Shown: in pieces, positions 4,199 to 19,654 of the stretch
Numbering within the stretch: position 1 is the first letter of the stretch
Layout: each line of letters begins with the position of its first letter
Origin: Pontibacillus marinus BH030004 = DSM 16465
GTDB lineage: Bacteria > Bacillota > Bacilli > Bacillales > BH030062
Direction: 5' to 3'
NCBI RefSeq assembly: GCF_000425225.1
Contig: NZ_AULJ01000039.1
Location: forward strand, 1-55,916
Length of the DNA: 55,916 bases
Made by a program: the position numbers and the translations under genes
Notes under the pieces: generated by a model
Told to the model about the DNA's origin: nothing
The model's input: only the letters and a program-made list of their open reading frames with translations
Database searches by the model: none

Positions 4199-4286
4199 GT
4201 CTTTTCTCTCCTTCTTCCCAGTATTTTTAGATATTGATATCATTCCTTTTTCTATTAAAAAATAAACAGTAAGGAGAGGAGATGGA

Positions 4287-4320
4287 CGAAAAAAGAAAGC
4301 CCGAGTTTTTATACTCAGGC
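4287..4320 (-). terminator. Terminator of the LLM-class monooxygenase gene
   Basis: GCCCGAGT (4299-4306) pairs with ACTCAGGC (4313-4320), overlapping the stop codon, and is followed on the minus strand by a T-rich tract. Confidence 0.7.
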
Positions 4321-5340
4321 TTCATATGATCGTGTATCTAATTCAAATTCTTTAGCCAATAATTCATAAGATTTTAATCGTTCTTCAAATGGACTCACAA
4401 TTGTGTTCACGATTACTTCATTGACATTATAGGCGCGAGCAAGATGTTCTATTTTCTCTTTTACTTGTTTAGGATCGCCTACAACCATTCGACTTCTATT
4501 TTCACGCACACGCTCTTTTTCAAAAATGGAATAAGGGTATTGGCTCGCCTCATCCGGAGTTGGGAAGCCATCGCGGTTACCACCTTGTTCAATTTTTAAA
4601 ATAGCTAAATCTAAGCTTGATGCAAGATATTCAGCTTTTTCTTCTGTTTCACTGCATACCACAAAAATCGAAACATTCCCCTGAGGTTTCTCTTGTTGCA
4701 TAGAGGGTTGGAAGTGATCCTGATAGCGGCTCATTGCACGGGTTCCACCGTAACCATTAATAAAATGCGCAAATGAATAGGAAGCACCAACATCTGCTGC
4801 AAGACGTGCACTAGTACCGCTTGAACCGAGCATCCAAATCGATGGTGTGGTCTCAGCCAGTGGTGTTGCATAGACATTCATGTCATAAGGATCATGTCCA
4901 TGCAGATAAGCCATTAGCTCTTTTACTTGCTGTGGGTAATGTTCAACATTAGGTGCACCCCCATCATTAAGAGCTCGATTCACATTTGGCATACCTCCAG
5001 GAGCACGTCCAACTCCAAGGTCAATGCGTCCGGGGTAAAGTGTGTCGAGAACTCGGAACGATTCTGCTACTTTATAAGCACTGTAATGGGGGAGGAGCAC
5101 ACCTCCTGTGCCAACACGTATAGATTTTGTATGTGCTGCTAAATGTGCGGTTAATATTTCAGGCGCAGATCCAGCCAGGCTTTTTGTACTGTGGTGTTCA
5201 GAAACCCAGTAACGATGGTAACCAAGGAGGTCTACATGTTGAACAAGCTCAGTCGTTTGTTGAAAAGCATCTATGGGAGACATCCCCGTTAAAATAGGAG
5301 ATTGATCTAATACACTTAGTTTAATGGTCAATTCGTTCAC
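4315..5340 (-). CDS. LLM class flavin-dependent oxidoreductase
   Basis: A protein of about 340 aa from the bacterial luciferase-like monooxygenase family. Visible marks are SVLDQSPI at the N-terminus, HRYWVSEHHS near residue 42, the RVGTGGVLLPHYSAYKVAE strand-helix, and RIDLGVGRAPGG, characteristic of the single-subunit YvbT/MsnO8 subgroup (TIM barrel, FMNH2-dependent). The substrate is unknown. The reading frame can start at GTG 5340 or at TTG 5331; the only Shine-Dalgarno-like bases (GGGTGA) overlap the GTG and favour the TTG. It is divergent from the DoxX gene and shares the MhqR-like operator region, so it may belong to the quinone/electrophile response. Confidence 0.82.
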   Translation of the reverse strand: MNELTIKLSVLDQSPILTGMSPIDAFQQTTELVQHVDLLGYHRYWVSEHHSTKSLAGSAPEILTAHLAAHTKSIRVGTGGVLLPHYSAYKVAESFRVLDTLYPGRIDLGVGRAPGGMPNVNRALNDGGAPNVEHYPQQVKELMAYLHGHDPYDMNVYATPLAETTPSIWMLGSSGTSARLAADVGASYSFAHFINGYGGTRAMSRYQDHFQPSMQQEKPQGNVSIFVVCSETEEKAEYLASSLDLAILKIEQGGNRDGFPTPDEASQYPYSIFEKERVRENRSRMVVGDPKQVKEKIEHLARAYNVNEVIVNTIVSPFEERLKSYELLAKEFELDTRSYEA

Positions 5341-6108: not shown

Positions 6109-9100
6109 GTGGAAAGAATCCCCGTCATTCAGACACAGTTACGACCTCCTGTTGTAAAAGATCGTTTTGTTCGTCGTGCAAAGTTACATAAAAAGCTGTC
6201 CTCTATGACTCACTATCCTCTTGTCTTATTACATTCGGGAGCGGGTTATGGGAAAAGTACAGCTCTTACTTTATTTATTCAGGATTCAGGGTTGCAGGCT
6301 TGCTGGTATTCTATTTCATCCAATGATGATGACCTAGGTCCTTTTTTAACAAAGCTCATTCATGCTATTCGGATTCAGCATGCTGATTTTGGTGAGGCCA
6401 TTCTTCAAGAACTTGAGACCATCCAACAATATGTACAAGACCAGGAAATATGGTCGCTTGTTTCCATGATGGTGAATGAAATCGAACAGCTAGAAAATGA
6501 ATTGTATGTTGTCCTTGATGACTTTCATCATATAGAACATTCTTTGCCAATTGAACAATGGATGATTCATTTTATGGAGCATATCCCGGAGAATTGTCAT
6601 GTTGTTATTTCTAGCCGTAATAGGCCACATTGGAATGTTCTAACCTCGTTAAAGGTGAAAGGGAACCTGCTAGAAATCTCTCAAGAAGATGTGACCTTTT
6701 CTCAAGAAGAAATGGAGCATTTGTTGATCGATCTATATGAATTTGACCTTTCAGATTCAGCTCTAGAGAAGCTTCATCAGTTAACTGAAGGATGGGCGAT
6801 TGCTTTTGAGATGGTTATTCAGCAGCTTCAAGCTGGAATTGATGTGGAGAGTGTTGTCCAAAACCGTACGAATACGCTTCAAGACCTTTTTGATTATTTA
6901 GCTTTAGAGGTGTTATCGAAACAATCTCTAATGGTGCAACAATTTCTAATGCAAACTAGTATTTTGGAGGTGCTTTCTCCCAAACTATGTGATTACGTCT
7001 TGGGTATGACAGGATCTGGCTCCATGCTTGAGCAGTTAGCAGATCAACAACTCTTTCTTCAGAGAGTAAGTGAGGATCACTATCGCTATCACGCTTTGTT
7101 TAAAGCTTTTTTGGAAAACCGAATGAAAAAAGAACAGCCAAAGGAGTACCAACAACTACACCAAAAAGCAGCCCGCTACCATGAACAAAACGGAGATATG
7201 GAGACGGCTCTTTCCCACCTTGCAAATATGGGAGATCATGGTCGTTTGTCGCAATTACTTCAAGAGTTTGGTCAAGAGATGCTCAAAAATGGAAAGCTCC
7301 AGAGTCTCTACGATCGACTGATTGCGATTCCTTCACAGGAAAAACGTCATTTCCCAATTTTATGGTACTACCAGGGTGAGATTTTACGTTATTGGTCTTC
7401 TTATAAAGAAGCGGAATCATGTTATGACCGTGCAGAATCTATTGCACATGACCGAGATGATGCTTATTTAGTTAGCCTGTCACTAGAAGGGAAAGCGCAA
7501 ATCTACCTGGATACGATTCAGCCTGATCAAGCTGAACGTATATTACAAAAAGCAATTGATATTCGGGAAAAAACGAATGCAACCAAAGAAGAGATGGCAA
7601 GACTCTATCATCGTTTAGCTGAAAATCTATTAAATGCGGGCAATGCTGTGAAAGCAGAGGCTTGGTTTGAACGTGCAAAAGAACTAAAACTGCCTTTATT
7701 AGATGGGAATTTAGAAGCCCGTTTGTATTTAAGAACAGGAAGACTGGAGCAAGCAGAAAAAGTGCTTCTAGAACGAAAAAAAGCACAACCATTTGATGAA
7801 TCACAGCATTTGCCTCAGTCCTTTCGAGAAACAGACATATTATTATCGATTATTTCATCGTTTATGGGTAAAAGTGATGAAAGTAAGAAATATGCTGAAC
7901 AAGGAATACATCAGGGGATTCAAGTGCAGTCACCCTTTGTAGAAGCTTGCGGATGGATGAGAATTGGGCATGCCGTCCAACTAATCAATCGCTATGAGCC
8001 TCACCTAGCTGAAAAGTGCTATCAAACCTCATTGGAAATGATGGAGAAAATGAATGTTTCAAGAGGGAAGGCAGAGCCGTATATGGGACTTAGCGTATTA
8101 TATGGTGTTCAAGGTGAATATGAAAAGGCTATGGCCGCAGGTGAAAAAGGTCTTCATGAAACAGAACAGGTGAAAGATCTCTGGTTATCCTCTCTCATTC
8201 AACTATGTATGGGGATTACCGCCTTATATTGTAAGAAATATGAGGAAGCGAATTCAGTTTTTATGACAGTAGAACAACAAATGGGTCATTGTGGTGATGA
8301 ATACGGAATAATGCTGACTTCATTTTGGAAGGCTTACGCTGCTCGTGAGACAGAAGAGGAAGAAGTTTTTGAAAGAGAAATGAGGGCCTTTCTGCAGCGT
8401 ATACAGACAGGAGGTTACGAATTTTTCTTGAAAGAAAGAACAACCTTCGGGCCGATGGATGTTCAAAATATCATTCCCTTGTTGTTTAAAGCGCAGAAAC
8501 TTAAAATTCATGAGCCTTTTGTATCTAAAATGATTCACGAACTTGGGTATGATGAGATGAAAAACCATCCAGGATATACGCTTCGGATTCAAACCTTAGG
8601 ACAACTCAAGGTATGGTTGGGGAATCAACTTGTTGAGGAGAAGGATTGGCAGCGCGGGAAAGCAAAGGAACTATTTGAGTTTTTCGTTACAAAGCGCCAT
8701 CAACAAGTTTCAAAAGAAGAAATCTACCAAGCATTATGGCCCGATCAAGATGAATCTGGTGCCAATCGTAGCTTTAAAGTGGCCCTGAACGCTCTTTTGA
8801 AAACCCTAGAGCCAGGAAGGAAAGCGCGAGCAGAATCCTTTTTTATAAAAAAAGATGGACAAACATATGGACTGAACCCTCAAGCTGGTTATGAGCTCGA
8901 TATTGCTTCTTTTGAAGAATGGATCGAAGCGGGACTAGAAGAGAAAGATGCGAACCGATCCAAAGACTTGCTTGAGAGAGGTTTAAAGCGGTATGAGGGA
9001 AACTATTTGGAGGACCGTCGCTTAGCAGATTGGTGTTTGAATGAACGTGAGCGTGTTCAAGTATTATTCTTGCGAGGGGCCGAAAAGTTAGCACAGGTAT

Positions 9101-9354
9101 CGGTTCGTCTTCAGGATTTTGACACTTGTATTCAATGGTGTGAAGCGATTTTACGAATAGATCGCTCGTGGGAGGAAGCTTATCGGTTAATGATGTATAG
9201 TTACTATCAAAAAAATAACCGACCTCAAGCGATTAAATGGTATCAGAAATGTTACCGAGTATTAGAAGACGAGCTAGGTGTGGAACCGATGAAGCCCACG
9301 AAAGAAATGTTTGAGATCATCAAAAGTGATAAGGGTGTTGAAGTTTTTGCTTAA
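6109..9354 (+). CDS. MalT-like STAND ATPase regulator with C-terminal BTAD
   Basis: A 1081-aa cytosolic transcription regulator. Residues about 25-340 form a STAND/NB-ARC-type ATPase (P-loop GAGYGKST at 44-51; Walker B YVVLDDFHHIE near 132; a SSRNRPHW sensor segment). About 350-800 is a helical TPR array. From about 825 a winged-helix OmpR-like domain (LRIQTLGQLKVWLG...GKAKELFEFF) is followed by a bacterial transcriptional activator domain (about 928-1065), as in SARP regulators, rather than the LuxR-type HTH of MalT. It is therefore predicted to bind direct repeats when ATP and an inducer are bound. GTG 6109 follows AAGGAG at 9 nt. It lies upstream of the liv/KAS operon, whose promoter carries such a repeat. 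The inducer is unknown. Confidence 0.85.
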   Translation: MERIPVIQTQLRPPVVKDRFVRRAKLHKKLSSMTHYPLVLLHSGAGYGKSTALTLFIQDSGLQACWYSISSNDDDLGPFLTKLIHAIRIQHADFGEAILQELETIQQYVQDQEIWSLVSMMVNEIEQLENELYVVLDDFHHIEHSLPIEQWMIHFMEHIPENCHVVISSRNRPHWNVLTSLKVKGNLLEISQEDVTFSQEEMEHLLIDLYEFDLSDSALEKLHQLTEGWAIAFEMVIQQLQAGIDVESVVQNRTNTLQDLFDYLALEVLSKQSLMVQQFLMQTSILEVLSPKLCDYVLGMTGSGSMLEQLADQQLFLQRVSEDHYRYHALFKAFLENRMKKEQPKEYQQLHQKAARYHEQNGDMETALSHLANMGDHGRLSQLLQEFGQEMLKNGKLQSLYDRLIAIPSQEKRHFPILWYYQGEILRYWSSYKEAESCYDRAESIAHDRDDAYLVSLSLEGKAQIYLDTIQPDQAERILQKAIDIREKTNATKEEMARLYHRLAENLLNAGNAVKAEAWFERAKELKLPLLDGNLEARLYLRTGRLEQAEKVLLERKKAQPFDESQHLPQSFRETDILLSIISSFMGKSDESKKYAEQGIHQGIQVQSPFVEACGWMRIGHAVQLINRYEPHLAEKCYQTSLEMMEKMNVSRGKAEPYMGLSVLYGVQGEYEKAMAAGEKGLHETEQVKDLWLSSLIQLCMGITALYCKKYEEANSVFMTVEQQMGHCGDEYGIMLTSFWKAYAARETEEEEVFEREMRAFLQRIQTGGYEFFLKERTTFGPMDVQNIIPLLFKAQKLKIHEPFVSKMIHELGYDEMKNHPGYTLRIQTLGQLKVWLGNQLVEEKDWQRGKAKELFEFFVTKRHQQVSKEEIYQALWPDQDESGANRSFKVALNALLKTLEPGRKARAESFFIKKDGQTYGLNPQAGYELDIASFEEWIEAGLEEKDANRSKDLLERGLKRYEGNYLEDRRLADWCLNERERVQVLFLRGAEKLAQVSVRLQDFDTCIQWCEAILRIDRSWEEAYRLMMYSYYQKNNRPQAIKWYQKCYRVLEDELGVEPMKPTKEMFEIIKSDKGVEVFA

Positions 9355-9375
9355 TTATAGATGGAGGGTGATCTG

Positions 9376-9654
9376 ATGGAAGATAAAATCGCATGTATGC
9401 ACCCAGAAGGAAAAGAAGCCCCGAGAATCGATCGAGATAAGTATGAAACCATTAAAAGGTGTATATTGAACACGATTCAAGAGCATGAAATCATTTCGTT
9501 TAAACAATTGCGTGTAGAGGTCACTCATCAGTTGAAGGGGAACTTTAATGGTTCGATATCTTGGTATTTAACGACAGTGAAATTAGATTTAGAAGCAAGG
9601 GGTTATATTAAGCGTTCGAAGCGGAATAACCTGCAACATTTAGAATTAGCATAA
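9376..9654 (+). CDS. Small winged-helix-like protein (possibly DUF6958)
   Basis: A 92-aa protein with CMHPEGKEAPRIDRDKY at the N-terminus and GSISWYLTTVKLDLEARGYIKR at the C-terminus, a pattern I associate with the small DUF6958 family; the DUF number is from memory and unverified. The helical spacing and the final basic strand suggest a winged-helix fold, possibly nucleic-acid binding. The start is placed at ATG 9376, which has GGAGG 8 nt upstream, rather than ATG 9361, which has none. It follows the BTAD regulator by 21 nt and probably shares its transcript. Function is unknown. Confidence 0.6.
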   Translation: MEDKIACMHPEGKEAPRIDRDKYETIKRCILNTIQEHEIISFKQLRVEVTHQLKGNFNGSISWYLTTVKLDLEARGYIKRSKRNNLQHLELA

Positions 9655-9666
9655 ATGTATCTAGAG

Positions 9667-9698
9667 AAGAGCTTGGAATTTGTCCCAAGCTCTTTTTT
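9667..9698 (+). terminator. Terminator after the regulator transcript
   Basis: AAGAGCTTGG and CCAAGCTCTT form a 10-bp stem with a 7-8-nt loop and a run of T. It closes the regulator/small-protein transcript. Confidence 0.9.
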
Positions 9699-9724
9699 AT
9701 ACTCTTTTACTTGTGAGTTATTCC

Positions 9725-9943
9725 AGAAAAGTCCCCGTTTGTTGAAGACTTGGATTCGAGATAAAGGGCGGTGGTGGTCCGTTGCTTTTGTGAGAGTAAG
9801 GGGATCGGTGAAACGGCAATACTCCTGCGGAAGACCGGCCGAGCTTCCTCGTTCGCAAGCTCTCTGCGGGATCTCGTCCGCCCTTTCTGCCGCGGGAGTT
9901 TGCCGTTTCCCTCACCCCTTCGCTGTTATGGAGGTTAACGGAC
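9725..9943. repeat. Palindromic interspersed repeat, copy A
   Basis: Termini GTCCGTT (9777-9783) and AACGGAC (9937-9943) are inverted. Inside, GAAACGGCAA...CTCC...GCGG pairs with CCGC...GGGAG...TTGCCGTTTC. The core from about 9833 to 9890 is the reverse complement of the core of copy B at 10.1 kb with few differences. Similarity to copy C at the window start extends left of the terminus to about 9725. Short frames across it look like chance translations of a palindrome. Confidence 0.75.
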
Positions 9944-10086
9944 CCAGGGTGAGATCATTTATTTTCATCCTTAAGGAAACTGTATTTTAGATCCTAAAAA
10001 CCCTCTACATATAAGGCCTTAGATCACCTGGGAGGGATATATGATTTAACTCGTTATTTAAAACCAGAAAACCTAACGATAGCTGC

Positions 10087-10256
10087 GGTTCCGTTATTCA
10101 CCATTCGGCTAAGGTGGGCTGTGGAACGGGTTGACTCCTCCGGTAGAAAGGGCGAGCGAGATCCCGCAGGAACGAAGTGACGAGGAAGCTCGATCGGTCT
10201 TCCGGGGAAAGCAACCCGTTCCACAGCCCACCGCACTCCACAAAAGCAACGGAACC
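10087..10256. repeat. Palindromic interspersed repeat, copy B (inverted)
   Basis: Termini GGTTCCGTT (10087-10095) and AACGGAACC (10248-10256) are inverted. An inner arm of about 20 bp, GGTGGGCTGTGGAACGGGTT, is almost perfectly matched by its complement at 10212-10232. The core is the inverted copy of the core of A, while the arms are unrelated in sequence. Together with copy A it fills most of the 720-bp non-coding gap between the regulator and the liv operon; between the copies I see nothing else. Confidence 0.75.
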
Positions 10257-10334
10257 ACCCCGCACCAGCTTATTCAAGATTACTGCCATTTAATTAATAA
10301 ATAATGCGCTTCAAGTATTTATGATAACTTCATT

Positions 10335-10367
10335 TGTAACTCCCGTGTAACTCTTCTTTCGTACGAT
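10335..10367 (+). promoter_or_regulatory. BTAD-type activator site and promoter of the liv/KAS operon
   Basis: Direct repeat TGTAACT (10335-10341) and TGTAACT (10346-10352) with a 4-nt gap, an 11-bp period, lies 9 nt before TACGAT (10362-10367, the -10). No -35 box is present. The same layout recurs at 18092-18124. SARP/BTAD activators bind 7-bp direct repeats of 11-bp period just upstream of the -10, so the 1081-aa regulator is the likely binder. Confidence 0.7.
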
Positions 10368-10422
10368 AAGGTCAAAGCAGTAGACGCTTGGATGAACTTA
10401 AATTTAAAGGGGGAGTTTTTCA

Positions 10423-11697
10423 ATGTCATGGAAACGAATTATAGGTAGTTTGTTCATGGTGATGCTTCTAAGTATTTTCACAGTAGCTTGTTCAGGCGAT
10501 AACGAAGCTTCATCAGAAAATGGTGGAAGTGAGACAGAAACGGAAGAGCAGAGTAACTCGAATAATGGAGATAGTGGTGAATCAGCAGATAAGAGTCCCA
10601 TTAAAATTGGGGTGCTAGCTTCTCTATCTGGTCCACTAGAAGCTTATGGAACACAAACGAAGCGAGGATTTGAACTTGGTTTAGAGTATGCAACTGATGG
10701 AACGATGGAAGTTGAAGGCCGAAAGGTTGAAGTGGTCTATGAAGATACAGAAACAGATCCGAAAGTAGCTCGTCAGAAGGCGATAGGTCTTTTAGAAGAA
10801 GAGCAAGTAGACTTCTTAGTTGGTTCATCTAGCTCAGGAGATACAAAAGCTGTTCTTCCATTAGCTGAAGAATACAAAAAGATTATGGTTGTTGAGCCAG
10901 CAGTAGCGGACAGTATTACTGGAGCTGACTGGAACAAGTACATTTTCCGTACAGCTCGTAACTCATCTCAGGATGCTGCAGCAGGCGCGGCAGCGATTGC
11001 AGACGAGGGGGTTAAAATAGCAACACTCGCTCCAGACTATTCATTTGGTCGCGATGGTGTAGCTGCATTTAAAACAGCGGCAGAAGATCTAGGGGCAGAA
11101 ATTATTCATGAAGAATATGCGGATCCAAGTGCGACGGACTTCACAGCAAATATTCAAAAGGTCATTGAAGCAGATCCTGATTACCTGTTCGTTATTTGGG
11201 CAGGGGCGAACACGCCTTGGAATCAGATTAATGATATGAAACTGCAAGAAAAAGGCATTAAGATCTCAACAGGTGCACCTGACATTGCAGCTTTAAAAAC
11301 CATGAAACCTCTTGTAGGTATGGAAGGTTTCACAGTTTATTATCATGATCTTCCTGATAATGAGGTGAATGATTGGTTAGTAGAAAAACATAAAGAAAAA
11401 TATGATGGTGAGGTACCAGACTTATTCACTCCAGGTGGTATGAGTGCAGCGATTTCCATTGTTAAAGCTATTAAAGACAATAATGGTAGTGCCAATGCGG
11501 ATGAGTTGATCTCCGTAATGGAAGGTATGAGTTTTAATACACCTAAGGGTGAAATGACCTTCCGTAAAGAAGACCATCAGGCATTACAGTCATTGTATAA
11601 GATCAAACTTAAGGAAAAAGAGGGATATGACTATCCGGTACCAGTATTAGAGCGTGTCCTAACACCAGAGGAAACAGCTCCTCCAATCCAAAACTAA
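10423..11697 (+). CDS. Branched-chain-amino-acid-type ABC transporter lipoprotein
   Basis: A 424-aa substrate-binding lipoprotein (Peripla_BP_6, LivK type). A signal peptide ends in the lipobox TVAC (Cys about 23), followed by a Ser/Glu/Asn-rich linker to about residue 60, then IKIGVLASLSGPLEAYGTQTK and further family motifs (SSGDTKAVLPLAEEY, APDYSFGRDGVAAF). It would be anchored outside the membrane and deliver the substrate to the permeases encoded downstream. The family binds branched-chain amino acids but also aromatic acids, amides and urea, so the ligand is open. It is first gene of the operon, expressed from the direct-repeat promoter. ATG 10423 follows AAAGGGGGAG. Confidence 0.9.
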   Translation: MSWKRIIGSLFMVMLLSIFTVACSGDNEASSENGGSETETEEQSNSNNGDSGESADKSPIKIGVLASLSGPLEAYGTQTKRGFELGLEYATDGTMEVEGRKVEVVYEDTETDPKVARQKAIGLLEEEQVDFLVGSSSSGDTKAVLPLAEEYKKIMVVEPAVADSITGADWNKYIFRTARNSSQDAAAGAAAIADEGVKIATLAPDYSFGRDGVAAFKTAAEDLGAEIIHEEYADPSATDFTANIQKVIEADPDYLFVIWAGANTPWNQINDMKLQEKGIKISTGAPDIAALKTMKPLVGMEGFTVYYHDLPDNEVNDWLVEKHKEKYDGEVPDLFTPGGMSAAISIVKAIKDNNGSANADELISVMEGMSFNTPKGEMTFRKEDHQALQSLYKIKLKEKEGYDYPVPVLERVLTPEETAPPIQN

Positions 11698-11705
11698 GTA
11701 GATAC

Positions 11706-11740
11706 CAATGAACTTCGGCGCTCCTTGCCGGAGTTCATTG
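11706..11740 (+). other. Intercistronic hairpin between binding protein and ATPase genes
   Basis: A 14-bp stem (CAATGAACTTCGGC with GCCGGAGTTCATTG, one G-T pair) has a 7-nt loop. Only TTT follows, so it is a weak terminator at best. Such hairpins after binding-protein genes usually protect the upstream mRNA or partially attenuate, giving more binding protein than membrane components. Confidence 0.7.
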
Positions 11741-11768
11741 TTTCATAACGTCAGAGGGAGGTAGAAAC

Positions 11769-12536
11769 ATGGATACTATTCTTGAAACAAAAGACATTAC
11801 GATCGCTTTTGGCGGTCATGTTGCGGTTGATGAGGTGAGCGTTCAAATACCTGAAAAACAATTTACATCTGTGATCGGACCCAATGGTGCTGGGAAAACA
11901 ACTTTTTTTAATCTTTTAAGTGGGCAGCTTCGTCCTACAAAGGGTGATATTTACTTTAAAGGAGAGTCTATAACAAAACTCTCGCCAACTAAACGAACAC
12001 GTAAAGGAATTGGTAGATCTTTTCAAATAACCAATGTGTTCCCAAACTTAACAGTATTGGAGAATGTACGGTTAGCTGTACAATCCAAAAAACAGGTGCG
12101 CTTTCAGATGCTGAAACATTTTAAGTCCTATAAAGATCAAGAAGAGAAAGCTCTAGAGTTGTTGGGTGAAGTTTTATTAAAAGATAAGGCAAACTCTTTA
12201 GCTAGTAATCTAGCGCATGGTGAAAAAAGAAAGTTAGAGATAGCTATGCTTTTAGCGCTAGAAACAGAAATACTCTTATTAGATGAACCGACCGCTGGTA
12301 TGTCTCTTGAAGAGGTTCCTGCGATTCTAGAGGTCATTCACAACATTAAGAGACAAGGTGATCGAACAATCGTGTTAATCGAGCACAAAATGGATATGAT
12401 TCTGGACTTGTCTGATCAAGTGCTGGTGTTATTTAATGGGCAACTTCTTGCTCAAGGTACACCAGAAGACATTATGGACAATGAAACAGTTCAGTCAGCA
12501 TATTTAGGAGGACTGTATGATGACAACTCTGCTTAA
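11769..12536 (+). CDS. ABC transporter ATP-binding protein, LivG type
   Basis: A 255-aa cytoplasmic ATPase. Walker A is GPNGAGKTT near residues 37-45, the signature is the LivG-variant LAHGEKRKLEIAMLL, and Walker B is ILLLDEPTAGMS, followed by the IEHKMD switch region. It energises import of the ligand bound by the lipoprotein upstream. The start follows GAGGGAGGT at 7-nt spacing. Its 3' end overlaps the next ATPase gene by 20 nt, so the two subunits are translationally coupled. Confidence 0.9.
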   Translation: MDTILETKDITIAFGGHVAVDEVSVQIPEKQFTSVIGPNGAGKTTFFNLLSGQLRPTKGDIYFKGESITKLSPTKRTRKGIGRSFQITNVFPNLTVLENVRLAVQSKKQVRFQMLKHFKSYKDQEEKALELLGEVLLKDKANSLASNLAHGEKRKLEIAMLLALETEILLLDEPTAGMSLEEVPAILEVIHNIKRQGDRTIVLIEHKMDMILDLSDQVLVLFNGQLLAQGTPEDIMDNETVQSAYLGGLYDDNSA

Positions 12537-13227
12537 GTTAGAAGGAATCGAAACCTATATTGATCAATTTCACATCCTTCATGACGTGGGATTTGAAGTG
12601 CCAAAAGGGGAAGTGACGGTTTTGTTAGGGCGAAATGGTGCCGGGAAAACGACCACGCTTCGTACCATTATGGGGCTGAATCCAGCCACGCAAGGGAGTG
12701 TGACATTTAACGGAAAGGACATTACCAAACTCCCCCCTTACAAAGTCGCAAAGGAAGGTATTGGTTATGTTCCTGAAGATCAAGGAATTTTTGGCGATTT
12801 GACGGTGGGTGAAAACATGCGGGTAGCCATGCAAAAAGAAGATGATTCCACGCATGAACGAATGGAATGGGTGCTGAACCTTTTCCCTGATTTAAAAACG
12901 TTTTGGAACAAGCCTGGAGGACAACTAAGTGGGGGTCAAAAGCAGATGCTTGCTATTGCCAGAGCTTATATGAATGAGAGTGAACTTTTACTTATAGATG
13001 AACCAAGTAAGGGTTTGGCACCGATTGTGGTCGAAAAAGTGATGGAATCCATTCAGGAAATGAAAGAAAAAACGACGATCGTTCTAGTGGAACAAAATTT
13101 CTTAATGGCAAGTCGAATTGGGGATCGTTTCTATATATTGGATGACGGTCAAACGGTTCATCAAGGACAGATGAATGAGCTCGAAAAAGATGAATCATTG
13201 AAGAAGAAATATCTCGGAATTGCGTAG
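12517..13227 (+). CDS. ABC transporter ATP-binding protein, LivF type
   Basis: A 236-aa ATPase. Walker A is GRNGAGKTTT near residues 38-47, the Q-loop/VPEDQGIFGDLTVGEN segment is typical of LivF, the signature is LSGGQKQMLAIARA, and Walker B is LLLIDEPSKGLAP. It is the partner of the LivG-type ATPase. Two adjacent ATG codons (12517, 12520) follow AGGAGG within the end of the upstream gene; either could serve. The start lies inside the LivG reading frame and the permease genes follow 16 nt after its stop. Confidence 0.9.
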   Translation: MMTTLLKLEGIETYIDQFHILHDVGFEVPKGEVTVLLGRNGAGKTTTLRTIMGLNPATQGSVTFNGKDITKLPPYKVAKEGIGYVPEDQGIFGDLTVGENMRVAMQKEDDSTHERMEWVLNLFPDLKTFWNKPGGQLSGGQKQMLAIARAYMNESELLLIDEPSKGLAPIVVEKVMESIQEMKEKTTIVLVEQNFLMASRIGDRFYILDDGQTVHQGQMNELEKDESLKKKYLGIA

Positions 13228-13243
13228 GGAGGGGGACTAGCCA

Positions 13244-14110
13244 ATGGATTTGTTTTTTAACTTAGCCATTAATGGGCTTGCTACAGGCATGCTCATATTC
13301 TTACTAGCTTCGGGGCTTACGCTCATTTTTGGTCTGATGGACGTATTGAACTTTGCCCATGGTGGCTTATTTGCATGGGGAGCTTTTAGTGGAGTGTGGG
13401 TGTATGACCTTACAGGAAGCTTTACGATTGGTGTTCTTGGAGCTATTGTAACGGGCTTGTTACTTGGTGTTTTGACAGAATGGCTCATTATTAAGCCAGT
13501 TTACGGGAATCACGTACAACAGATTTTGATCACGTTAGGGTTTATGTTGGTTTTATCTGAAATGCTTAAAGTTGTCTTTGGTCCGAACCCAATTGCTGCT
13601 GAACCTCCTGCAGGCCTAGAAGGAAGCTTTCAACTTGGTGATGTCATATTAATAAAGTATCGTCTGTTTATCATTTTAATTGGTGCGCTCGTTTATGCCA
13701 TTACCTTCTTTATTTTGAAGAAGACAAGAGTAGGGTTGATTGTTCGAGCGGGTGTTATGGATAAAGAGATGGTCCAGTCTCTTGGGATTAACATTCGATT
13801 TGTTTTTATGCTTGTATTTATGGCTGGATCGGCGCTTGCTGCATTAGGTGGTATCCTGCTTGCTCCTTATTCTGGTGTAATCTATGCAGAGATGGGAATG
13901 GAGTTTGCGATTTTAGCTTTTATTGTGGTTGTCATTGGCGGCATGGGAAGCTTTACTGGCTCCTTGTTCGCTGCAATTCTTGTGGGACTTGCGCAAGCTT
14001 TTATGGCCTACTACGTTCCGTCGTTATCTCTCGCTGTAAACATGCTTTTAATGGCAGCTGTACTCATATTTCGTCCACAAGGGTTATTTTCACTTAAGGG
14101 GGGAGCGTAA
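13244..14110 (+). CDS. ABC transporter permease, LivH type
   Basis: A 288-aa integral membrane permease with about eight hydrophobic helices. Family marks are GLTLIFGLMDVLNFAHGGLFAWGAF at the N-terminus (the conserved NFAHG motif) and FAILAFIVVVIGGMGSFTGSL, the cytoplasmic coupling loop that contacts the ATPase. ATG 13244 follows GGAGGGGG. It ends in TAATG, which also starts the LivM-type gene, a 1-nt overlap. Confidence 0.9.
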   Translation: MDLFFNLAINGLATGMLIFLLASGLTLIFGLMDVLNFAHGGLFAWGAFSGVWVYDLTGSFTIGVLGAIVTGLLLGVLTEWLIIKPVYGNHVQQILITLGFMLVLSEMLKVVFGPNPIAAEPPAGLEGSFQLGDVILIKYRLFIILIGALVYAITFFILKKTRVGLIVRAGVMDKEMVQSLGINIRFVFMLVFMAGSALAALGGILLAPYSGVIYAEMGMEFAILAFIVVVIGGMGSFTGSLFAAILVGLAQAFMAYYVPSLSLAVNMLLMAAVLIFRPQGLFSLKGGA

Positions 14111-15117
14111 TGACAAACCTTCAAATGAACAAAAGTACAATGGCCTACACTTTGTGTGCTATCGCACTTCTCGCGCTTCCTTTTGGGTATGATAACAGAA
14201 CGATTCTATTTCTGATCACTCAAGTGTTTATCTTTGGAATTTTTGCAATGAGCTATGACTTGTTGCTTGGGTTCACAGGTATCGTTTCATTTGGGCATGC
14301 CATGTTTTTTGGTATTGGTGCTTATAGTGTTTCGATTATTTTAGACCGAAATGAACCAACGATGTTTTATTTAGTGATTGGAGCCATTGTGGCTATGGCT
14401 ATAGCTGGACTCGTTAGTTTTATTGCAGGTATTTTGACCCTTCGGTTAAAGAGTCACTTTTACGCCATGCTTACTCTTGCATTAGCGGGCTTGTTTTTAG
14501 TTGCTGCAGAAAAATGGCGTTCCCTCACGAAAGGTAACGATGGTTTTGTATTACAGATACCAGAGTTATTCCGTGATCGAACAAATTTATACTTAACCTG
14601 TCTGATTTCATTGATTGTTTTGTTCTTTTTAGTAAGACGTTTTACACAGTCCCCGCTTGGACGTATTTTAATGGCGATTCGAGAAAATGAACAGCGTGTG
14701 GAGTCCATTGGCTTTGACATTATGCATTACAAAGTCATTGCTAGTGTCGTGTCGGGGGTTGTGGCAAGTTTCGCAGGTGTCTTGTACATTCTTTCACTTC
14801 GATTTGTAGATACCAGCGTTTTTGCAACAGAAGTAACACTCGACGCACTTCTAATGACGATCATTGGTGGGGTCGGAACATTAATAGGTCCGATTATAGG
14901 AGCAGGAATTATTGAATTTGCTCACCATTGGCTTTCAGAGCTGTCTGATGTGCATTGGATTTTTGAACGGTGGATCATTCTGTTTGGCATTATCTATATC
15001 TTGGCTGTGATTTTCTTTCCTCGTGGTATTGTGGGAAGTCTTATGCACATGTGGGGTAAGAAACGATACAAAAAGCACAATCAAACGAAAAATGAACAAA
15101 AGAAAGTTGCTAGTTAA
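14110..15117 (+). CDS. ABC transporter permease, LivM type
   Basis: A 335-aa integral membrane permease. Marks are MSYDLLLGFTGIVSFGHAMFFGIGAYSV (LivM N-terminal motif) and TLDALLMTIIGGVGTLIGPIIGAG (coupling loop). The C-terminus is strongly basic and cytoplasmic (KKRYKKHNQTKNEQKK). It forms the translocation pore with the LivH-type protein. It overlaps that gene by 1 nt and is followed after 15 nt by the 62-aa small protein, so the transporter and the enzyme genes form one operon. Confidence 0.9.
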   Translation: MTNLQMNKSTMAYTLCAIALLALPFGYDNRTILFLITQVFIFGIFAMSYDLLLGFTGIVSFGHAMFFGIGAYSVSIILDRNEPTMFYLVIGAIVAMAIAGLVSFIAGILTLRLKSHFYAMLTLALAGLFLVAAEKWRSLTKGNDGFVLQIPELFRDRTNLYLTCLISLIVLFFLVRRFTQSPLGRILMAIRENEQRVESIGFDIMHYKVIASVVSGVVASFAGVLYILSLRFVDTSVFATEVTLDALLMTIIGGVGTLIGPIIGAGIIEFAHHWLSELSDVHWIFERWIILFGIIYILAVIFFPRGIVGSLMHMWGKKRYKKHNQTKNEQKKVAS

Positions 15118-15132
15118 AAAGGGGGAAGTGGT

Positions 15133-15321
15133 GTGAGTCAACCAATTGCATCATTTGTCGTTCGCTTTCATGCATCGTTAGAAGAAGGGGAAGAGGATCA
15201 ACGATATCGGATTAAAGTAACCCATGTTCAAAATGAAGTAGAAATGACATTTGAGAGCTTTGATCAAGCGATGAATTATATGAAGAATTCCCTTGATGGA
15301 GTGGAGATAAAGGAGTTATGA
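15133..15321 (+). CDS. Small protein of unknown function in the liv/KAS operon
   Basis: A 62-aa acidic protein starting at GTG after AAGGGGGAAG. It reads as a beta-alpha-beta unit: FVVRFHASL, then RYRIKVTHVQNEVEMTFESFDQAMNYM, ending DGVEIKEL. There is no signal peptide, cysteine or membrane segment. I do not recognise a family. Its position between permease and KAS III-like enzyme, with a 4-nt overlap of stop and the next possible start, shows it is a genuine translated member of the operon. A role as a small accessory or ligand-binding subunit is guesswork. Confidence 0.65.
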   Translation: MSQPIASFVVRFHASLEEGEEDQRYRIKVTHVQNEVEMTFESFDQAMNYMKNSLDGVEIKEL

Positions 15322-15323
15322 CC

Positions 15324-16340
15324 ATGGAATCAGTCGGAATTGTATCCACAGGCGTTTATATACCTGAAGACGTGATGACGTCTCAAGAGATTGCAGAACA
15401 GGCAGGATTGCCGATTGAAGTTGTCGAACAGAAAATGGGTATTAAACAAAAGCCTGTGCCAGGAGAGGAAGACCATACGTGTGAGATGGGGATACGTGCA
15501 GCGAAGAAGGCTTTGGAAAAAGGGGGCATAGACCCTGGTGACATCGATCTTGTCATCTATATAGGGGAGGAATACAAAGAGTATCCTCTATGGACTGCTG
15601 GAATTAAACTTCAAGAAGCGGTTGGAGCTGCAAATGCATGGGCCTTTGATGTGGCTATGCGATGTGGGACTACAATTATGGCGATGAAAGTTGCGCGTAA
15701 TATGATGATAGCTGATCCAGACATTCAAACGGTTTTATTAGCTGGTGGGTACAGAAATGGAGATTTTATTCGATTTGATAATCCTCGAACACGTTTTATG
15801 TACAATTTGAGTGCTGGTGGAGGCGCGATGATCTTACAGCGTGGTCATGAAAAGAATCGAGTTTTGGATAGCTCATTAATAAGCGATGGATCGTTTTCAG
15901 AGGATGTTGTCGTTGTTGCGGGTGGTACGAAGGTTCCTCTTACACCTGATAACTTCGACCAATACCAGTTAGATGTGTTGGACCCAGAAGGGATGAAGAA
16001 GCGACTTGAAGAAAAGTCGATGAGCAACTTTTTACATGTCATTCGTGAAGCTTTGCAAAAAAGCGGTTATACCCAAGAAGATGTTTCATATGTAGCCATG
16101 CTTCATATGAAACGATCAGCTCATGAATATGTATTGAAGGAGCTTGGATTGGACCTAAGTCAATCCATCTATTTAGAGAATTACGGTCATATTGGCCAGA
16201 TGGATCAAATCCTTTCTCTTGAGCTAGCTGAACAAGAGGGGAAGTTGACTGATGGAGACATTGTTGTACTTGTTAGTGCCGGAATTGGCTATGCATGGGG
16301 CGCAACAGCGATTAAGTGGGGAAATCATAAGAGAGGGTGA
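15324..16340 (+). CDS. KAS III-like thiolase-fold enzyme with altered triad
   Basis: A 338-aa protein of the FabH/3-oxoacyl-ACP synthase III superfamily: YIPEDVMTSQEIAEQ at the N-terminus, nucleophile Cys114 in DVAMRCGTT, His261 in AMLHMKRSAHE, and a C-terminal GIGYAWGATAIKWG strand. The expected Asn of the Cys-His-Asn triad falls at ENYGHIGQ, where the sequence has His289. It is probably a specialised acyl condensing, transferring or cleaving enzyme rather than housekeeping FabH, given its operon with a transporter. Start ATG 15324 has AAGGAG at 8 nt; ATG 15318 is too close. The next gene starts at its stop codon. Confidence 0.8.
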   Translation: MESVGIVSTGVYIPEDVMTSQEIAEQAGLPIEVVEQKMGIKQKPVPGEEDHTCEMGIRAAKKALEKGGIDPGDIDLVIYIGEEYKEYPLWTAGIKLQEAVGAANAWAFDVAMRCGTTIMAMKVARNMMIADPDIQTVLLAGGYRNGDFIRFDNPRTRFMYNLSAGGGAMILQRGHEKNRVLDSSLISDGSFSEDVVVVAGGTKVPLTPDNFDQYQLDVLDPEGMKKRLEEKSMSNFLHVIREALQKSGYTQEDVSYVAMLHMKRSAHEYVLKELGLDLSQSIYLENYGHIGQMDQILSLELAEQEGKLTDGDIVVLVSAGIGYAWGATAIKWGNHKRG

Positions 16341-16345
16341 TGAGT

Positions 16346-17260
16346 ATGATGGACGTTTCTCTGAAAAAAGTACAACTCCCAAATGGTGAATCACTAGGAT
16401 ACCGAGAACGTGAAGGTGGGGAAGATGTCGTTGTTTTGGTCCATGGAAATATGACGTCTTCAAAGCATTGGGATCTTGTTTTAGAAAATATGAATTCCAA
16501 GTATAAAGTATACGCCATTGATTTGAGAGGGTTTGGTGTTTCTACATATCTAGAGCCTATTTCATCTATTAAAGATTTTTCAGATGATCTGAAATCTTTT
16601 TTAGATGCATTAGACTTGGATGATGTCGCACTTGTCGGTTGGTCTATGGGTGGAGCCGTTTGTCAGCAATTCTGTGTAGATTATCCGAGTTATTGTAATC
16701 GCTTACTCTTATTAGCTTCAGGGTCCACACGTGGTTATCCTTTTTATGCAACGGGTGAGAATGGTTTGCCTGATACGAATCACCGTCTGAAAACGTATGA
16801 AGAGGTCAAAGCTGATCCAGGTAAAACACTTGCTGTGCAGAAAGCTTATGACACAGAGGATCGTGAGTTTTTAAAGTCGATGTGGAACATGCTGATTTAT
16901 GTGAATAATAAGCCTGATGAGGAAAAGTGTGAGGAATATGTAGATGATATTTTAACGCAACGAAATCTTGCTGAAGTCTATCAGGCTTTGAATCAATTTA
17001 ATATTAGTGCAGTTGATAACGAAGTAGCCCAAGGGACGGGGCAGGCACAGGATATAAATATCCCTGTTTTGGTTATGCGCGGCGATATGGACTACGTAAT
17101 AACAGAAAAGATGACAAATGAGATCTTAGAAGATATAGGAGAGAATACAACTTTTGTATCTTTACCAGGATGTGGTCACTCTCCTTTAGTGGATGATTTA
17201 TCGTCATTGATACAAACGCTGGAACAATTTTTAGAAGAAAAGGAGCATCATAAACAGTGA
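16346..17260 (+). CDS. Alpha/beta hydrolase
   Basis: A protein of about 304 aa with the alpha/beta hydrolase fold: oxyanion-hole LVHGNMTSSKHWD, nucleophile elbow GWSMGGAVCQQ (Ser), acid in VMRGDMDYVI, and His in LPGCGHSPLV, a complete Ser-Asp-His triad. The C-terminal lid helices are acidic. The substrate is unknown; in this operon an ester, thioester or C-C bond of an acyl intermediate is likely. Start candidates are GTG 16337, ATG 16340, 16346 and 16349; 16346 has the best spacing from AGAGGGTGA. The stop overlaps the SDR start by 4 nt. Confidence 0.82.
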   Translation: MMDVSLKKVQLPNGESLGYREREGGEDVVVLVHGNMTSSKHWDLVLENMNSKYKVYAIDLRGFGVSTYLEPISSIKDFSDDLKSFLDALDLDDVALVGWSMGGAVCQQFCVDYPSYCNRLLLLASGSTRGYPFYATGENGLPDTNHRLKTYEEVKADPGKTLAVQKAYDTEDREFLKSMWNMLIYVNNKPDEEKCEEYVDDILTQRNLAEVYQALNQFNISAVDNEVAQGTGQAQDINIPVLVMRGDMDYVITEKMTNEILEDIGENTTFVSLPGCGHSPLVDDLSSLIQTLEQFLEEKEHHKQ

Positions 17261-17997
17261 GATTACAAGATAAAGTAGCGATTATAACAGGTGGAGCAAA
17301 TGGCATTGGATTTGAAGCGGCAAGGCTATTTGCTAGTGAAGGTGCGAAAGTAGCGATTGCGGATTTCAATCGAGAGGTTGGAGAGCAACGAGCCATTGAG
17401 TTAAAAAGTGAAGGATTTGATGTGAGTTTTGTGGAGGTAAACGTAGCAGAACGAGAGAGTGTTGATGCGATGGTTGAAAGTGTAGCTTCTCAATTTGGGG
17501 GCATTGATATACTCGTAAACAATGCTGGCATTACACGTGATGCGATGTTGTCTAAAATGACATCCGAACAATTTCAACAGGTGATCAATGTTAACCTAAC
17601 AGGAGCGTTCCATTGTGCGCAGGCCGTGTTACCTTATTTAGTTGAAAAAGGAAAAGGGAAGATAATTAACACGTCCTCTGTATCAGGTGCGTTTGGAAAT
17701 GTTGGTCAGTCTAACTATGCGGCGGCTAAATCTGGGTTACTCGGTTTAACGAAAACATGGGCTAAAGAGCTTGGAAGAAAAGGGATCAATGTAAATGCTG
17801 TAGCTCCAGGATTCACGGAGACTGCTATGGTAGAAGAAGTTCCTGAAAAAGTAATCGATCAAATGATAGAACAAGTTCCTATGGGACGCTTAGGACGTAC
17901 TACAGACATTGCTCAGGCTTATCTATACTTAGCTTCAGATGAATCAAATTATGTGAATGGTCATACTCTTCATGTTGATGGCGGCATCATGATGTGA
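17257..17997 (+). CDS. SDR family oxidoreductase, FabG-like
   Basis: A 246-aa classical short-chain dehydrogenase/reductase. The nucleotide site is TGGANGIGFEAARLF (residues about 10-24), followed by NNAGIT and the catalytic Ser-Tyr-Lys in NTSSVSGAFGNVGQSNYAAAK. The C-terminus YVNGHTLHVDGGIMM is typical of 3-oxoacyl-(ACP/CoA) reductases. Asp at the end of beta-2 (IADFNRE) suggests NAD(H) rather than NADP(H). GTG 17257 overlaps the hydrolase stop. It is the last gene of the operon, followed directly by a nested terminator. It probably interconverts a 3-oxo and 3-hydroxy acyl group. Confidence 0.85.
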   Translation: MRLQDKVAIITGGANGIGFEAARLFASEGAKVAIADFNREVGEQRAIELKSEGFDVSFVEVNVAERESVDAMVESVASQFGGIDILVNNAGITRDAMLSKMTSEQFQQVINVNLTGAFHCAQAVLPYLVEKGKGKIINTSSVSGAFGNVGQSNYAAAKSGLLGLTKTWAKELGRKGINVNAVAPGFTETAMVEEVPEKVIDQMIEQVPMGRLGRTTDIAQAYLYLASDESNYVNGHTLHVDGGIMM

Positions 17998-18005
17998 TTT
18001 CCTCT

Positions 18006-18073
18006 ATACCGTGCTTAACTCAAGATTGTCGACAAGTATTTCGACAAACCTTTGAGGGAGCACGGTATTTTTT
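18006..18073 (+). terminator. Nested long terminator, copy 2
   Basis: Outer stem ATACCGTGCT (18006-18015) pairs with AGCACGGTAT (18059-18068) before a T run. The 43-nt interior contains a perfect 7-bp hairpin (TTGTCGA with TCGACAA) inside a second stem (CTCAAG with CTTTGAG). It shares architecture and interior with copies 1 and 3. Confidence 0.9.
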
Positions 18074-18091
18074 ATAAGGATGGTTTCCCTT

Positions 18092-18124
18092 TGTAACTAC
18101 CTTGTAACTCCGATTTTGTAGCAT
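18092..18124 (+). promoter_or_regulatory. BTAD-type activator site and promoter of the ligase gene
   Basis: TGTAACT (18092-18098), 4-nt gap, TGTAACT (18103-18109), then 9 nt and TAGCAT (18119-18124) as -10. This reproduces the 10335-10367 site base for base in spacing, with conserved flanking CTTTGTAACT and ATAAGGT-like bases. It indicates co-regulation with the liv/KAS operon. Confidence 0.7.
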
Positions 18125-18157
18125 AAAGGTAGCTTACAAGAACGGGGAGAGATGATT

Positions 18158-19654
18158 GTGAGATGTGAATTAGATTGGATCAAGGGACGTGCTCGTCTTT
18201 TTCCCGAGCAAGTTGCTGTTATTGATGATGATCAGGGTAAGTCTTTTACATATGAAGAACTTAATGAACGTGCAATCAATCTAGCGAACTATTTTTTATC
18301 TCAAGGGATTCAAAAAGGAGATCGAATTGCACTAATTGCACCCAACCATGTCAGCTACTTTGACTTCTTATTCTCCTGTGCCAAAATTGGTGCCATTTTT
18401 GTCCCATTAAACTGGAGACTATCAAAGGGTGAACAGGAGTATGTACTAGGGGATTCAAAGCCTAAGTTGATCGGTGTGCACCAACATTTCGCAGGGGATT
18501 GTGAATGGGTGAAGTTCGAGTACTCTGTGTTAGATATTCATGACAATGAGTATATTCGTAAGCTTCCTATTCTTGGTCTGAATTCTGAAAGCATGCCGCA
18601 ATCATTAGATGAGCCACTGGCGATGATGTACACAGGAGGAACAACAGGTAAGCCAAAGGGTGTTGTTTTATCTCATAACTCAATTATATGGAACGCCTTA
18701 AATACGATTGTGAGTTGGAATTTGACCAATGAAGATACAACCCTTACAACATTACCTATGTTCCATGCCGGAGGACTAAATGCATTGAGTGTCCCTCTAC
18801 TAATGTGTGGTGGAAAAGTCATATTGTCTTCTACATTCGATCCAGAAAAGGCTGTAGAGGATTTACTTCATTATCAATGTACGATCGTGTTATTTGTTCC
18901 AACAATGTATCATATGATTGTACGTACAAAGAGCTTTGCTGAAGCATCTTTCGAAAATATGAAAGTATTTCTTTCAGGAGGAGCCCCATGCCCTAAAGCG
19001 GTGTATGAAGCTTTTGCTGGAAAAGGTCTTTTATTCAAAGAGGGATATGGATTAACGGAAGCAGGTCCAAACAATTTTTATATCGACCCTTATGAGGCAA
19101 AAGAAAAACAAGGTTCTGTTGGGAAGGCCATGATGTTTAATGAGGTTCGAGTTGTAGATGATGAGGGGAAAGATGTTCAAGTAAACGAAGTAGGCGAGCT
19201 ATTGCTAAAAGGGAACCATACATTTGAATACTACTGGAATAAACCTAAAGCTACCTCTGAATCGATTGAAAATGGTTGGTTTCACACGGGTGATTTAGCC
19301 CGTCGGGATGATGATGGATATGTTTATATCGTTGGACGGAAAAAAGAGATGATCATTACGGGGGGAGAGAATGTTTACCCTCTAGAGGTTGAGCATTGGT
19401 TAGAAGCTCATGAAGGCATTAGTGAAGTCGCTGTTGTGGGCATTCCGGATGAGAAGTGGGGGGAAATCGTAACAGCTTTTATATCCTTGAATCAGGGCTT
19501 TTCATTAACGAAGGAAGAGCTCCAAGAGTACAGTAGAAAAAAACTTACACGTTACAAAAACCCGAAACATTTTCACTTTTTAGAGGAACTCCCTAAAACA
19601 CACGTAGGAAAAATAGATAAGCAAGCTCTTAAGAAAAATTTTATTAATCAGTAA
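18158..19654 (+). CDS. AMP-forming acyl-CoA synthetase
   Basis: A 498-aa class I adenylate-forming enzyme. The ATP-binding motif MYTGGTTGKPKGVVLSH lies near residue 155, motif A5 GYGLTEAG follows, A7 is FHTGDLARRDDDGYVYIVGRKK, and the catalytic lysine is in PKTHVGKIDKQAL near the C-terminus. It activates a carboxylic acid to acyl-AMP and then acyl-CoA; length and motifs fit fatty-acid/aryl-CoA ligases, and the exact acid is unknown. GTG 18158 is preferred because GGGGAG lies 8 nt upstream; ATG 18152 is only 2 nt from it. It is transcribed alone from a promoter with the same direct repeat as the liv operon. Confidence 0.87.
   Translation: MRCELDWIKGRARLFPEQVAVIDDDQGKSFTYEELNERAINLANYFLSQGIQKGDRIALIAPNHVSYFDFLFSCAKIGAIFVPLNWRLSKGEQEYVLGDSKPKLIGVHQHFAGDCEWVKFEYSVLDIHDNEYIRKLPILGLNSESMPQSLDEPLAMMYTGGTTGKPKGVVLSHNSIIWNALNTIVSWNLTNEDTTLTTLPMFHAGGLNALSVPLLMCGGKVILSSTFDPEKAVEDLLHYQCTIVLFVPTMYHMIVRTKSFAEASFENMKVFLSGGAPCPKAVYEAFAGKGLLFKEGYGLTEAGPNNFYIDPYEAKEKQGSVGKAMMFNEVRVVDDEGKDVQVNEVGELLLKGNHTFEYYWNKPKATSESIENGWFHTGDLARRDDDGYVYIVGRKKEMIITGGENVYPLEVEHWLEAHEGISEVAVVGIPDEKWGEIVTAFISLNQGFSLTKEELQEYSRKKLTRYKNPKHFHFLEELPKTHVGKIDKQALKKNFINQ

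Follow-up and report, generated by a model that had tools for sequence, protein, structure and literature searches.

The stretch of DNA analysed here, 55,916 nucleotides of Pontibacillus marinus BH030004 = DSM 16465 (contig NZ_AULJ01000039.1; hereafter the window), carries a large regulator gene, a nine-gene operon and a separate gene for an AMP-forming acyl-CoA ligase, which quite probably form a regulon for using 3-hydroxybutyrate (3HB) and its oligomers released from extracellular polyhydroxybutyrate (PHB). An earlier note on this DNA had described these genes, and the open reading frame list of the window contained all of them in the same places; it had also proposed that import, CoA activation and carbon-chain processing lay under one regulator through two linked promoters, a view that was upheld as far as sequence comparison reaches. 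The regulator (6109..9354, plus strand as for all features below, 1081 aa) has a MalT-like nucleotide-binding N-terminus, tetratricopeptide repeats (TPRs) and, at its C-terminus, a winged helix and a BTAD domain like those of the Streptomyces antibiotic regulatory proteins (SARPs). It gave the single BTAD match in the 4.28 Mb assembly, with a Pfam score of 72.3 bits (cut-off 22.1), and scored 19.9 bits with Trans_reg_C, under the cut-off of 26.2. Our best reading is that it would be a MalT-like, SARP-like activator for the uptake and oxidation of 3HB and oligomers derived from PHB.

The operon and the ligase gene are each preceded by the direct repeat TGTAACT-N4-TGTAACT, operator 1 at 10335..10352 before the nine-gene operon and operator 2 at 18092..18109 before the ligase. 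Both 7-mers are the same at the two promoters, where the spacer and flanking bases are different; the identical repeat reported in the earlier note is indeed there. The exact operator was found twice in the window and in none of 100 shuffles, and its two copies in the whole assembly are both at this locus. Two further sites with one mismatch elsewhere in this genome (L051 and L052; L numbers denote loci and G numbers genomes) were rejected since, by eye, no TAnnnT lay at the right distance. The predicted −10 elements are TACGAT at 10362..10367, 9 bp past the downstream repeat of operator 1, and TAGCAT at 18119..18124 in the ligase promoter, both read from the sequence; in a logo built from 158 distinct operators (TGTAACT-N4-TGTAACT-N9-TAnnaT) their position is conserved, and so is a CA 6–7 bases past that T. 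According to PMC10936776, SARPs bind direct repeats with a spacing of 11 or 22 bp, of which the 3′ repeat lies 8 bp from the −10. The logo has an 11-bp period and 9 bp to TAnnnT, and the predicted promoter geometry thus matches the published rule; the SARP-like direct repeats expected from the BTAD domain are borne out to that extent.

We compared two sets of loci. The first came from 61 genomes (our own and 60 relatives), in which 17 relatives' loci were picked by matches of at least 39% to the KAS III-like (3-ketoacyl-ACP synthase III-like) enzyme of the operon; the second comprised 80 named loci chosen by similarity to the same enzyme and is therefore biased and made up of related genomes. 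An operator was counted when at least 12 of its 14 bases agreed, a threshold set after the scores were seen; no depolymerase promoter scored 11. In the first set, with the window included and L045 and L046 left out, the operator (12–14 of 14) preceded the gene for the substrate-binding protein (SBP), the first of the operon, in 15/16 loci and the ligase gene in 12/14. The SBP miss was L048, from a genome with no regulator match, and in both ligase misses (L043, L044) the ligase lies directly behind the gene for the short-chain dehydrogenase/reductase (SDR) that ends the operon. Promoters of other genes (regulator, thiolase, TetR, second ligase, KAS2 and similar), which were left out of the count, never exceeded 10/14. 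Among the 80 named loci the operator preceded 72 of the 73 SBP genes with upstream sequence (the miss being L087) and 65/67 ligases, both misses having 15–16 bp between SDR and ligase. Sites of at least 12/14 across the loci numbered 161 on the operon strand, as compared with 7 on the other strand, 8 in a single shuffle of mononucleotides and 4 when the motif was reversed.

To pair operator and regulator we scanned 397 genomes of the order for both. The exact operator occurred in 94 genomes and the regulator in 98 (four of these matches, in G078, G133, G205 and G264, being split or partial); 83 genomes had both, 15 the regulator only, 11 the operator only and 288 neither (Fisher P 6e-57, an indicative value since the genomes are related). 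The comparison thus showed that the operator tracks the regulator. Of 142 exact sites, 130 were in regulator genomes; of these, 112 lay no more than 16 kb from the regulator, 7 preceded a depolymerase gene and 11 were elsewhere. Several of these 11 belong to the cluster, being on contigs that divide it or slightly more than 16 kb away (two sites each in G334 and G007, one each in G249, G265 and G235), and those of G016 and G383 look like chance. Another, in G332, is followed after 37 bp by the gene for a citrate synthase (L201:3224-4394; 633 bits, cut-off 508), and the other G265 site lies before the gene for an alpha/beta hydrolase that looks secreted (L205:4666-5985) with Pfam matches only under cut-off, which makes its product a candidate for a further type of secreted PHB depolymerase. 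As for the 11 genomes with an operator and no regulator match, in 10 of them the next gene, if any, matched no cluster protein or depolymerase; the exception was G338.

The substrate was indicated by operators lying outside the cluster. Of the five exact sites distant from the cluster that were checked first, four (G035, G018 and two in G011) precede genes for secreted type 1 short-chain polyhydroxyalkanoate (PHA) depolymerases, and the fifth (G016) has no depolymerase behind it. The four enzymes scored 283–328 bits with NF050058, the short-chain-length type 1 model (cut-off 150). We then took all 59 NF050058 genes found at E 1e-40 in the 397 genomes: the operator preceded 16 of the 19 in regulator genomes versus 1 of the 40 elsewhere (Mann-Whitney P 7e-8), the single case being G338 and the next best score there 10/14. 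Exact sites lay before eight depolymerase genes of known type, seven of them in regulator genomes, and before one gene for a secreted hydrolase of no assigned family. In L217 and L218 a depolymerase gene is inside the cluster itself, between SDR and ligase, and such genes were commoner in regulator genomes (18/98 versus 21/299, P 0.003). Because the same operator precedes secreted PHA depolymerases in relatives, the comparisons argue strongly for 3HB or its oligomers from PHB as the substrate.

The earlier note had spoken of a specific carboxylate or amide, which was incomplete, since the operators before the depolymerases narrow it to 3HB or oligomers. Taken as a rival, the import of some other, perhaps aromatic, carboxylate or amide could appeal to the SBP family, which includes binders of urea and amino acids as well as of aromatic acids; we give it very little credence in view of those same operators, of the PHB-depolymerase-type hydrolase in the operon, and of the finding of no ring-opening or hydroxylating enzyme among the scanned operon proteins (a statement about the operon, as the relatives' flanks were not all annotated). 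It is somewhat less improbable, and still improbable, that another hydroxy acid or ester is imported, such as longer 3-hydroxyalkanoates, 3-hydroxyvalerate or oligomers of another polyester, with 3HB as a minor substrate. Broad specificity is common among FabG-like SDRs and AMP ligases, and the citrate synthase of the regulon nearly reaches the cut-off of the 2-methylcitrate/citrate synthase II model (415 of 421 bits), which would suit propionyl-CoA. The secreted enzymes speak against it, all four scanned ones matching the short-chain model; the medium-chain model turned up for one of the four, at 32 bits and so under its cut-off of 270.

Within the operon, the alpha/beta hydrolase (16337..17260) belongs to the family of intracellular short-chain PHA depolymerases, with 452.6 bits for NF050089 (cut-off 300), and its nearest solved structures are those of PHB depolymerase, 8ynv/8ynw (E 9e-79); we propose that it is a 3HB-oligomer hydrolase. 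As NF050089 is named for intracellular depolymerases and the nearest chains are PHB depolymerases, one might suppose that the module serves to draw on PHB which the cell itself has stored, with the hydrolase as a true granule depolymerase and the importer incidental. We consider this very unlikely. A search with TIGR01836, the one PHA synthase model used, found no match beyond E 3.8e-4 in the organism's own genome, and of the 17 regulator genomes among the 61, two had a PHA synthase over cut-off (G047, G060), three a long match under it (G018, G035, G036) and 12 no long match. Own storage is disfavoured as a purpose because of these results, and both the importer in the operon and the secreted depolymerases in the regulon point outward. 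The hydrolase resembles the NF050089 enzymes in score and nearest structures and differs from them in being encoded with an importer, in genomes that mostly had no long PHA-synthase match. As neither a PHA synthase nor a secreted depolymerase was recognised in its own genome, the window's organism looks like a scavenger.

The FabG-like SDR (17257..17997) scored 319 bits with the FabG model NF004198 (cut-off 296) and fell short of the cut-offs of two models for 3-hydroxybutyrate dehydrogenase (205 bits for a cut-off of 307, and 223 for one of 258). Its scores therefore favour a CoA thioester as substrate, and we propose that it is an (R)-3-hydroxybutyryl-CoA dehydrogenase. The ligase (18152..19654; AMP-binding, 277 bits) reached 562 bits with its best NCBIfam model, under the cut-off of 650, and the other 24 models listed also stayed under theirs; since none of the 25 was over cut-off, no substrate was assigned to it by model, and we propose a 3-hydroxybutyrate (or acetoacetate) CoA ligase. 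The earlier note had called the module unlike standard beta-oxidation for want of an acyl-CoA dehydrogenase and a hydratase. The two steps are indeed missing from the operon, and the pathway accounts for it: a 3-hydroxyacyl-CoA enters beta-oxidation downstream of both, where a 3-hydroxyacyl-CoA dehydrogenase, here presumably the SDR, and a thiolase suffice. By eye, a thiolase gene lies between SDR and ligase in L035, L037, L038 and L042 (the L035 copy scoring 475 bits with the acetyl-CoA acyltransferase model, cut-off 241), and one is in the operon in 8 of the 80 named loci.

The substrate, the inducer, the order of the steps and the role of the KAS-like enzyme are what we infer from these patterns, and we propose the following course. 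Secreted depolymerases, a relative's own in some cases and those of neighbours in the case of the window's organism, would cut the polymer outside the cell; the lipoprotein SBP would catch 3HB or short oligomers and the liv-type importer would take them up. The intracellular PHB-depolymerase-type hydrolase would split oligomers, the ligase would form (R)-3HB-CoA, the SDR would oxidise it to acetoacetyl-CoA, and a thiolase, perhaps with the KAS-like enzyme, would give acetyl-CoA. The regulator may sense the supply as MalT does, a 3HB-related inducer acting on its MalT-like part, and its C-terminal winged helix and BTAD would bind both TGTAACT repeats, which are spaced by one turn of the helix and lie immediately 5′ of the −10, and recruit RNA polymerase.

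The nine genes from SBP to SDR overlap or nearly abut at their starts and stops, which fits one predicted operon, and its first five form a complete importer of the liv/HAAT (hydrophobic amino acid transporter) type of ATP-binding cassette (ABC) system: one SBP, two ATPases and two permeases. The SBP lipoprotein (10423..11697) has a lipobox by eye and 214.9 bits for Peripla_BP_6; its nearest solved chains are 3n0x and 3nnd, and a search for the ligand in the literature found no paper for PDB code 3N0X. The livG-type ATPase (11769..12536) was assigned from its reading frame and conserved place in the operon, with no family scan of its own, and the livF-type ATPase (12517..13227) had 236 bits for UrtE and 189 for LivF, both under cut-off. 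The livH-type (13244..14110) and livM-type (14110..15117) permeases scored 136 and 144 bits with BPD_transp_2.

This gene set was shown by comparison to be shared as a unit among relatives, as the earlier note had required of its own reading. A KAS III-like match of at least 50% identity was present in 15 other genomes of the 61, and the order SBP-livG-livF-livH-livM-KAS-hydrolase-SDR was kept in 13 of the 17 relatives' loci; the 62-aa protein was found in 9 of those 13 and the ligase in 12 (the contig of L040 ends before the ligase). Of the rest, L045 and L046 carry a different liv set, in genomes that gave no regulator match, and L047 and L048 are without this KAS. Among the 80 named loci we counted, by identity thresholds and with some loci cut by contig or flank ends, 79 with the hydrolase, 79 with the ligase, 76 with the SBP, 68 with the SDR and 66 with the regulator. 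There are other variants. In G037 the regulator and operator have the SDR alone behind them (L053:15040-15861), and a genome of the same genus, G235 (L232), has the operon; apparently this is a natural deletion leaving the switch with one gene. L048, from a same-genus genome and with a hydrolase gene broken by several stops (3879-4710) and, as noted, no operator before its SBP gene and no regulator match in its genome, looks like a module in decay. In L032 (8773-9762) and L033 (8185-9174), from two same-genus genomes, a gene of the Na/Ca exchanger type lies between SDR and ligase (Pfam match for the L032 copy).

The KAS III-like enzyme (15318..16340) belongs to NF005308 (PRK06840; 531.8 bits, cut-off 315). 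Its structural model has the FabH fold (pLDDT 88.5; TM 0.80–0.92 in the 50 matches listed), with residues 88–91, beside E84, at low confidence. G83, E84, C116, H263 and H291 were invariant in 16 sequences. Against an eight-protein profile of HMG-CoA (3-hydroxy-3-methylglutaryl-CoA) synthases (hhalign probability 94, E 1e-7), E84, C116 and H263 fell on the Glu of TES, the Cys and the His of FH-x-P, which we take to be the catalytic residues of those enzymes; scores with their models were all under cut-off (TIGR01835 26/360, TIGR00748 59/353 and NF003274 73/244 bits). The Cys-His-Asn triad, which we take to be that of classical FabH, was not found, for although C116 lies on the FabH Cys, a His (H291) occupies the Asn column in all 19 aligned sequences, and the region of H263 is offset by one residue. 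Thus the enzyme is like FabH in fold and unlike it at the third triad position, and like HMG-CoA synthases in its Glu, Cys and His columns and unlike them in model score. One possible, if doubtful, extension is that it is a new HMG-CoA-synthase-like or thiolase-like catalyst for PHB-derived acetoacetyl-CoA or 3-hydroxyacyl groups, sometimes aided by the 62-aa protein; this would be a carbon–carbon step outside the textbook 3HB pathway, under a class of regulator that in the literature searched had not been tied to bioplastic use.

The 62-aa protein (15133..15321) is of an unnamed family, of which 36 members were aligned, and is predicted to be beta-beta-beta-alpha (AlphaFold2 pLDDT 83.6). The protein itself had no Pfam match at E 0.001 (the best for any of the 36 members was E 0.004, with 25 families listed), and no fold in the PDB matched at E 0.001. 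The earlier note would have used it as a marker of the unit; because in 25 of the 80 named loci fewer than 100 bp separate livM from KAS, too few to hold its gene, it is optional and not diagnostic, and we dropped it as a module marker.

Other KAS-like genes were seen in these loci. A second block of TetR, ligase and KAS2 genes adjoins the SBP gene at L036:5820-9096, L047:7882-11040, L048:9470-12993 and L219:3879-7040, with a MaoC-like hydratase gene also in the block of L048; the three KAS2 copies aligned (L036, L047, L048) have Ser at the Cys column. In L045 and L046 a KAS-like enzyme of 50–53% identity stands with the other liv importer and a gene of the CoA-transferase type (scanned in L045, where it was under the equivalog cut-off), together with a regulator that is PAS-like by eye; in L045 there is a MaoC-like gene as well. 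In the window, directly behind the regulator and before the operon, lies a gene for a DUF6958 protein (9361-9654; 86 bits), which was rejected as a member of the unit, as none of the 17 relatives' loci had a match. Two GC-rich palindromic repeat elements of opposite orientation (9768-9945 and 10088-10263) lie between it and the operon promoter; their 24-base core occurs twice in the window and in none of 100 shuffles.

Among the literature matches listed, which covered few subscription papers, we found no paper on this regulon, regulator or importer, or on a link to SARPs. The closest report is that of Bacillus sp. NTK074B, whose 16S is nearest that of B. vietnamensis 151-6 and which, according to PMC7830162, grew on PHA and formed clearing zones. 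Rossellomorea vietnamensis (L089), marisflavi (L086) and aquimaris (L082), relatives by name, carry the module, the comparison being with a 16S neighbour and not with the NTK074B genome. In that text the words transporter and SARP are absent and "regulator" appears once, in a reference.

Several results weigh against the assignment to 3HB from extracellular PHB. In the same report, strain NTK034, whose 16S is nearest that of B. oceanisediminis 2691, failed both to grow on PHA and to clear it, and the module is present in strain 2691 (L064); such behaviour would fit a scavenger, yet the result lends no support. Most regulator genomes (80/98, our own included) had no NF050058 match at E 1e-40, and the own genome no PF10503 match either. 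Three of the 19 depolymerase genes in regulator genomes are without the operator (G383, G060, G205), and G338 has operator and depolymerase with no regulator match. Neither ligase nor SDR is assigned to 3HB by any model, and a simple 3HB pathway needs no KAS-like enzyme. Twelve of the 80 named loci have no SDR of at least 55% identity on the operon strand, and in part of these it is truly missing from its usual place. Lastly, G060 has the regulator, operator, importer and 62-aa gene with no KAS and with only a distant hydrolase beside them.

If the regulon for 3HB and PHB-derived oligomers is as we propose, it would supply a candidate regulator, operator and importer for PHB breakdown products in Bacillaceae; the wider scan found the regulator in about a quarter of the genomes of the order (98/397). 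The conserved 18-bp operator would offer a way to search for more secreted polyesterases through the regulon and not by sequence family. The proposal would set degraders, with a secreted depolymerase of their own, apart from scavengers, the window's organism among them. It would also be a case of a SARP-like module apparently at work outside antibiotic control.

MalT is a large one-protein sensor-activator of catabolic genes with a C-terminal LuxR-type helix-turn-helix, and it senses maltotriose. Like that member of the LAL/STAND activators, the regulator has an N-terminal part (aa 7-409) that aligns with MalT (PDB 8bob, E 5e-41); unlike MalT, it has a winged helix and BTAD where MalT has its helix-turn-helix, and its score with the MalT model, 262.6 bits, is under the cut-off of 537, so that it does not belong to the MalT type. 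Its residues 824-1073 align with AfsR of Streptomyces over both winged helix and BTAD (8hvr; 245 residues, E 5e-7), and as in SARPs the BTAD stands beside a winged-helix DNA-binding domain. The likeness to SARP/AfsR systems (PMC10936776; PDB 8hvr, 8jke, 8k60) extends to the nucleotide-binding oligomerisation (NOD) and TPR domains that AfsR also has and to direct repeats with a period of 11 bp shortly before the −10. The differences are that the regulator's NOD is MalT-like, that it is associated in Bacillaceae with carbon-source genes and not antibiotic genes, that these operators lie 9 bp from the −10 instead of the 8 bp given there, and that its DNA-binding part is C-terminal and not N-terminal as in SARPs. 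Because its DNA-binding and BTAD part is C-terminal we do not file it as a classical SARP; on its domains and operators, it is predicted to work like one.

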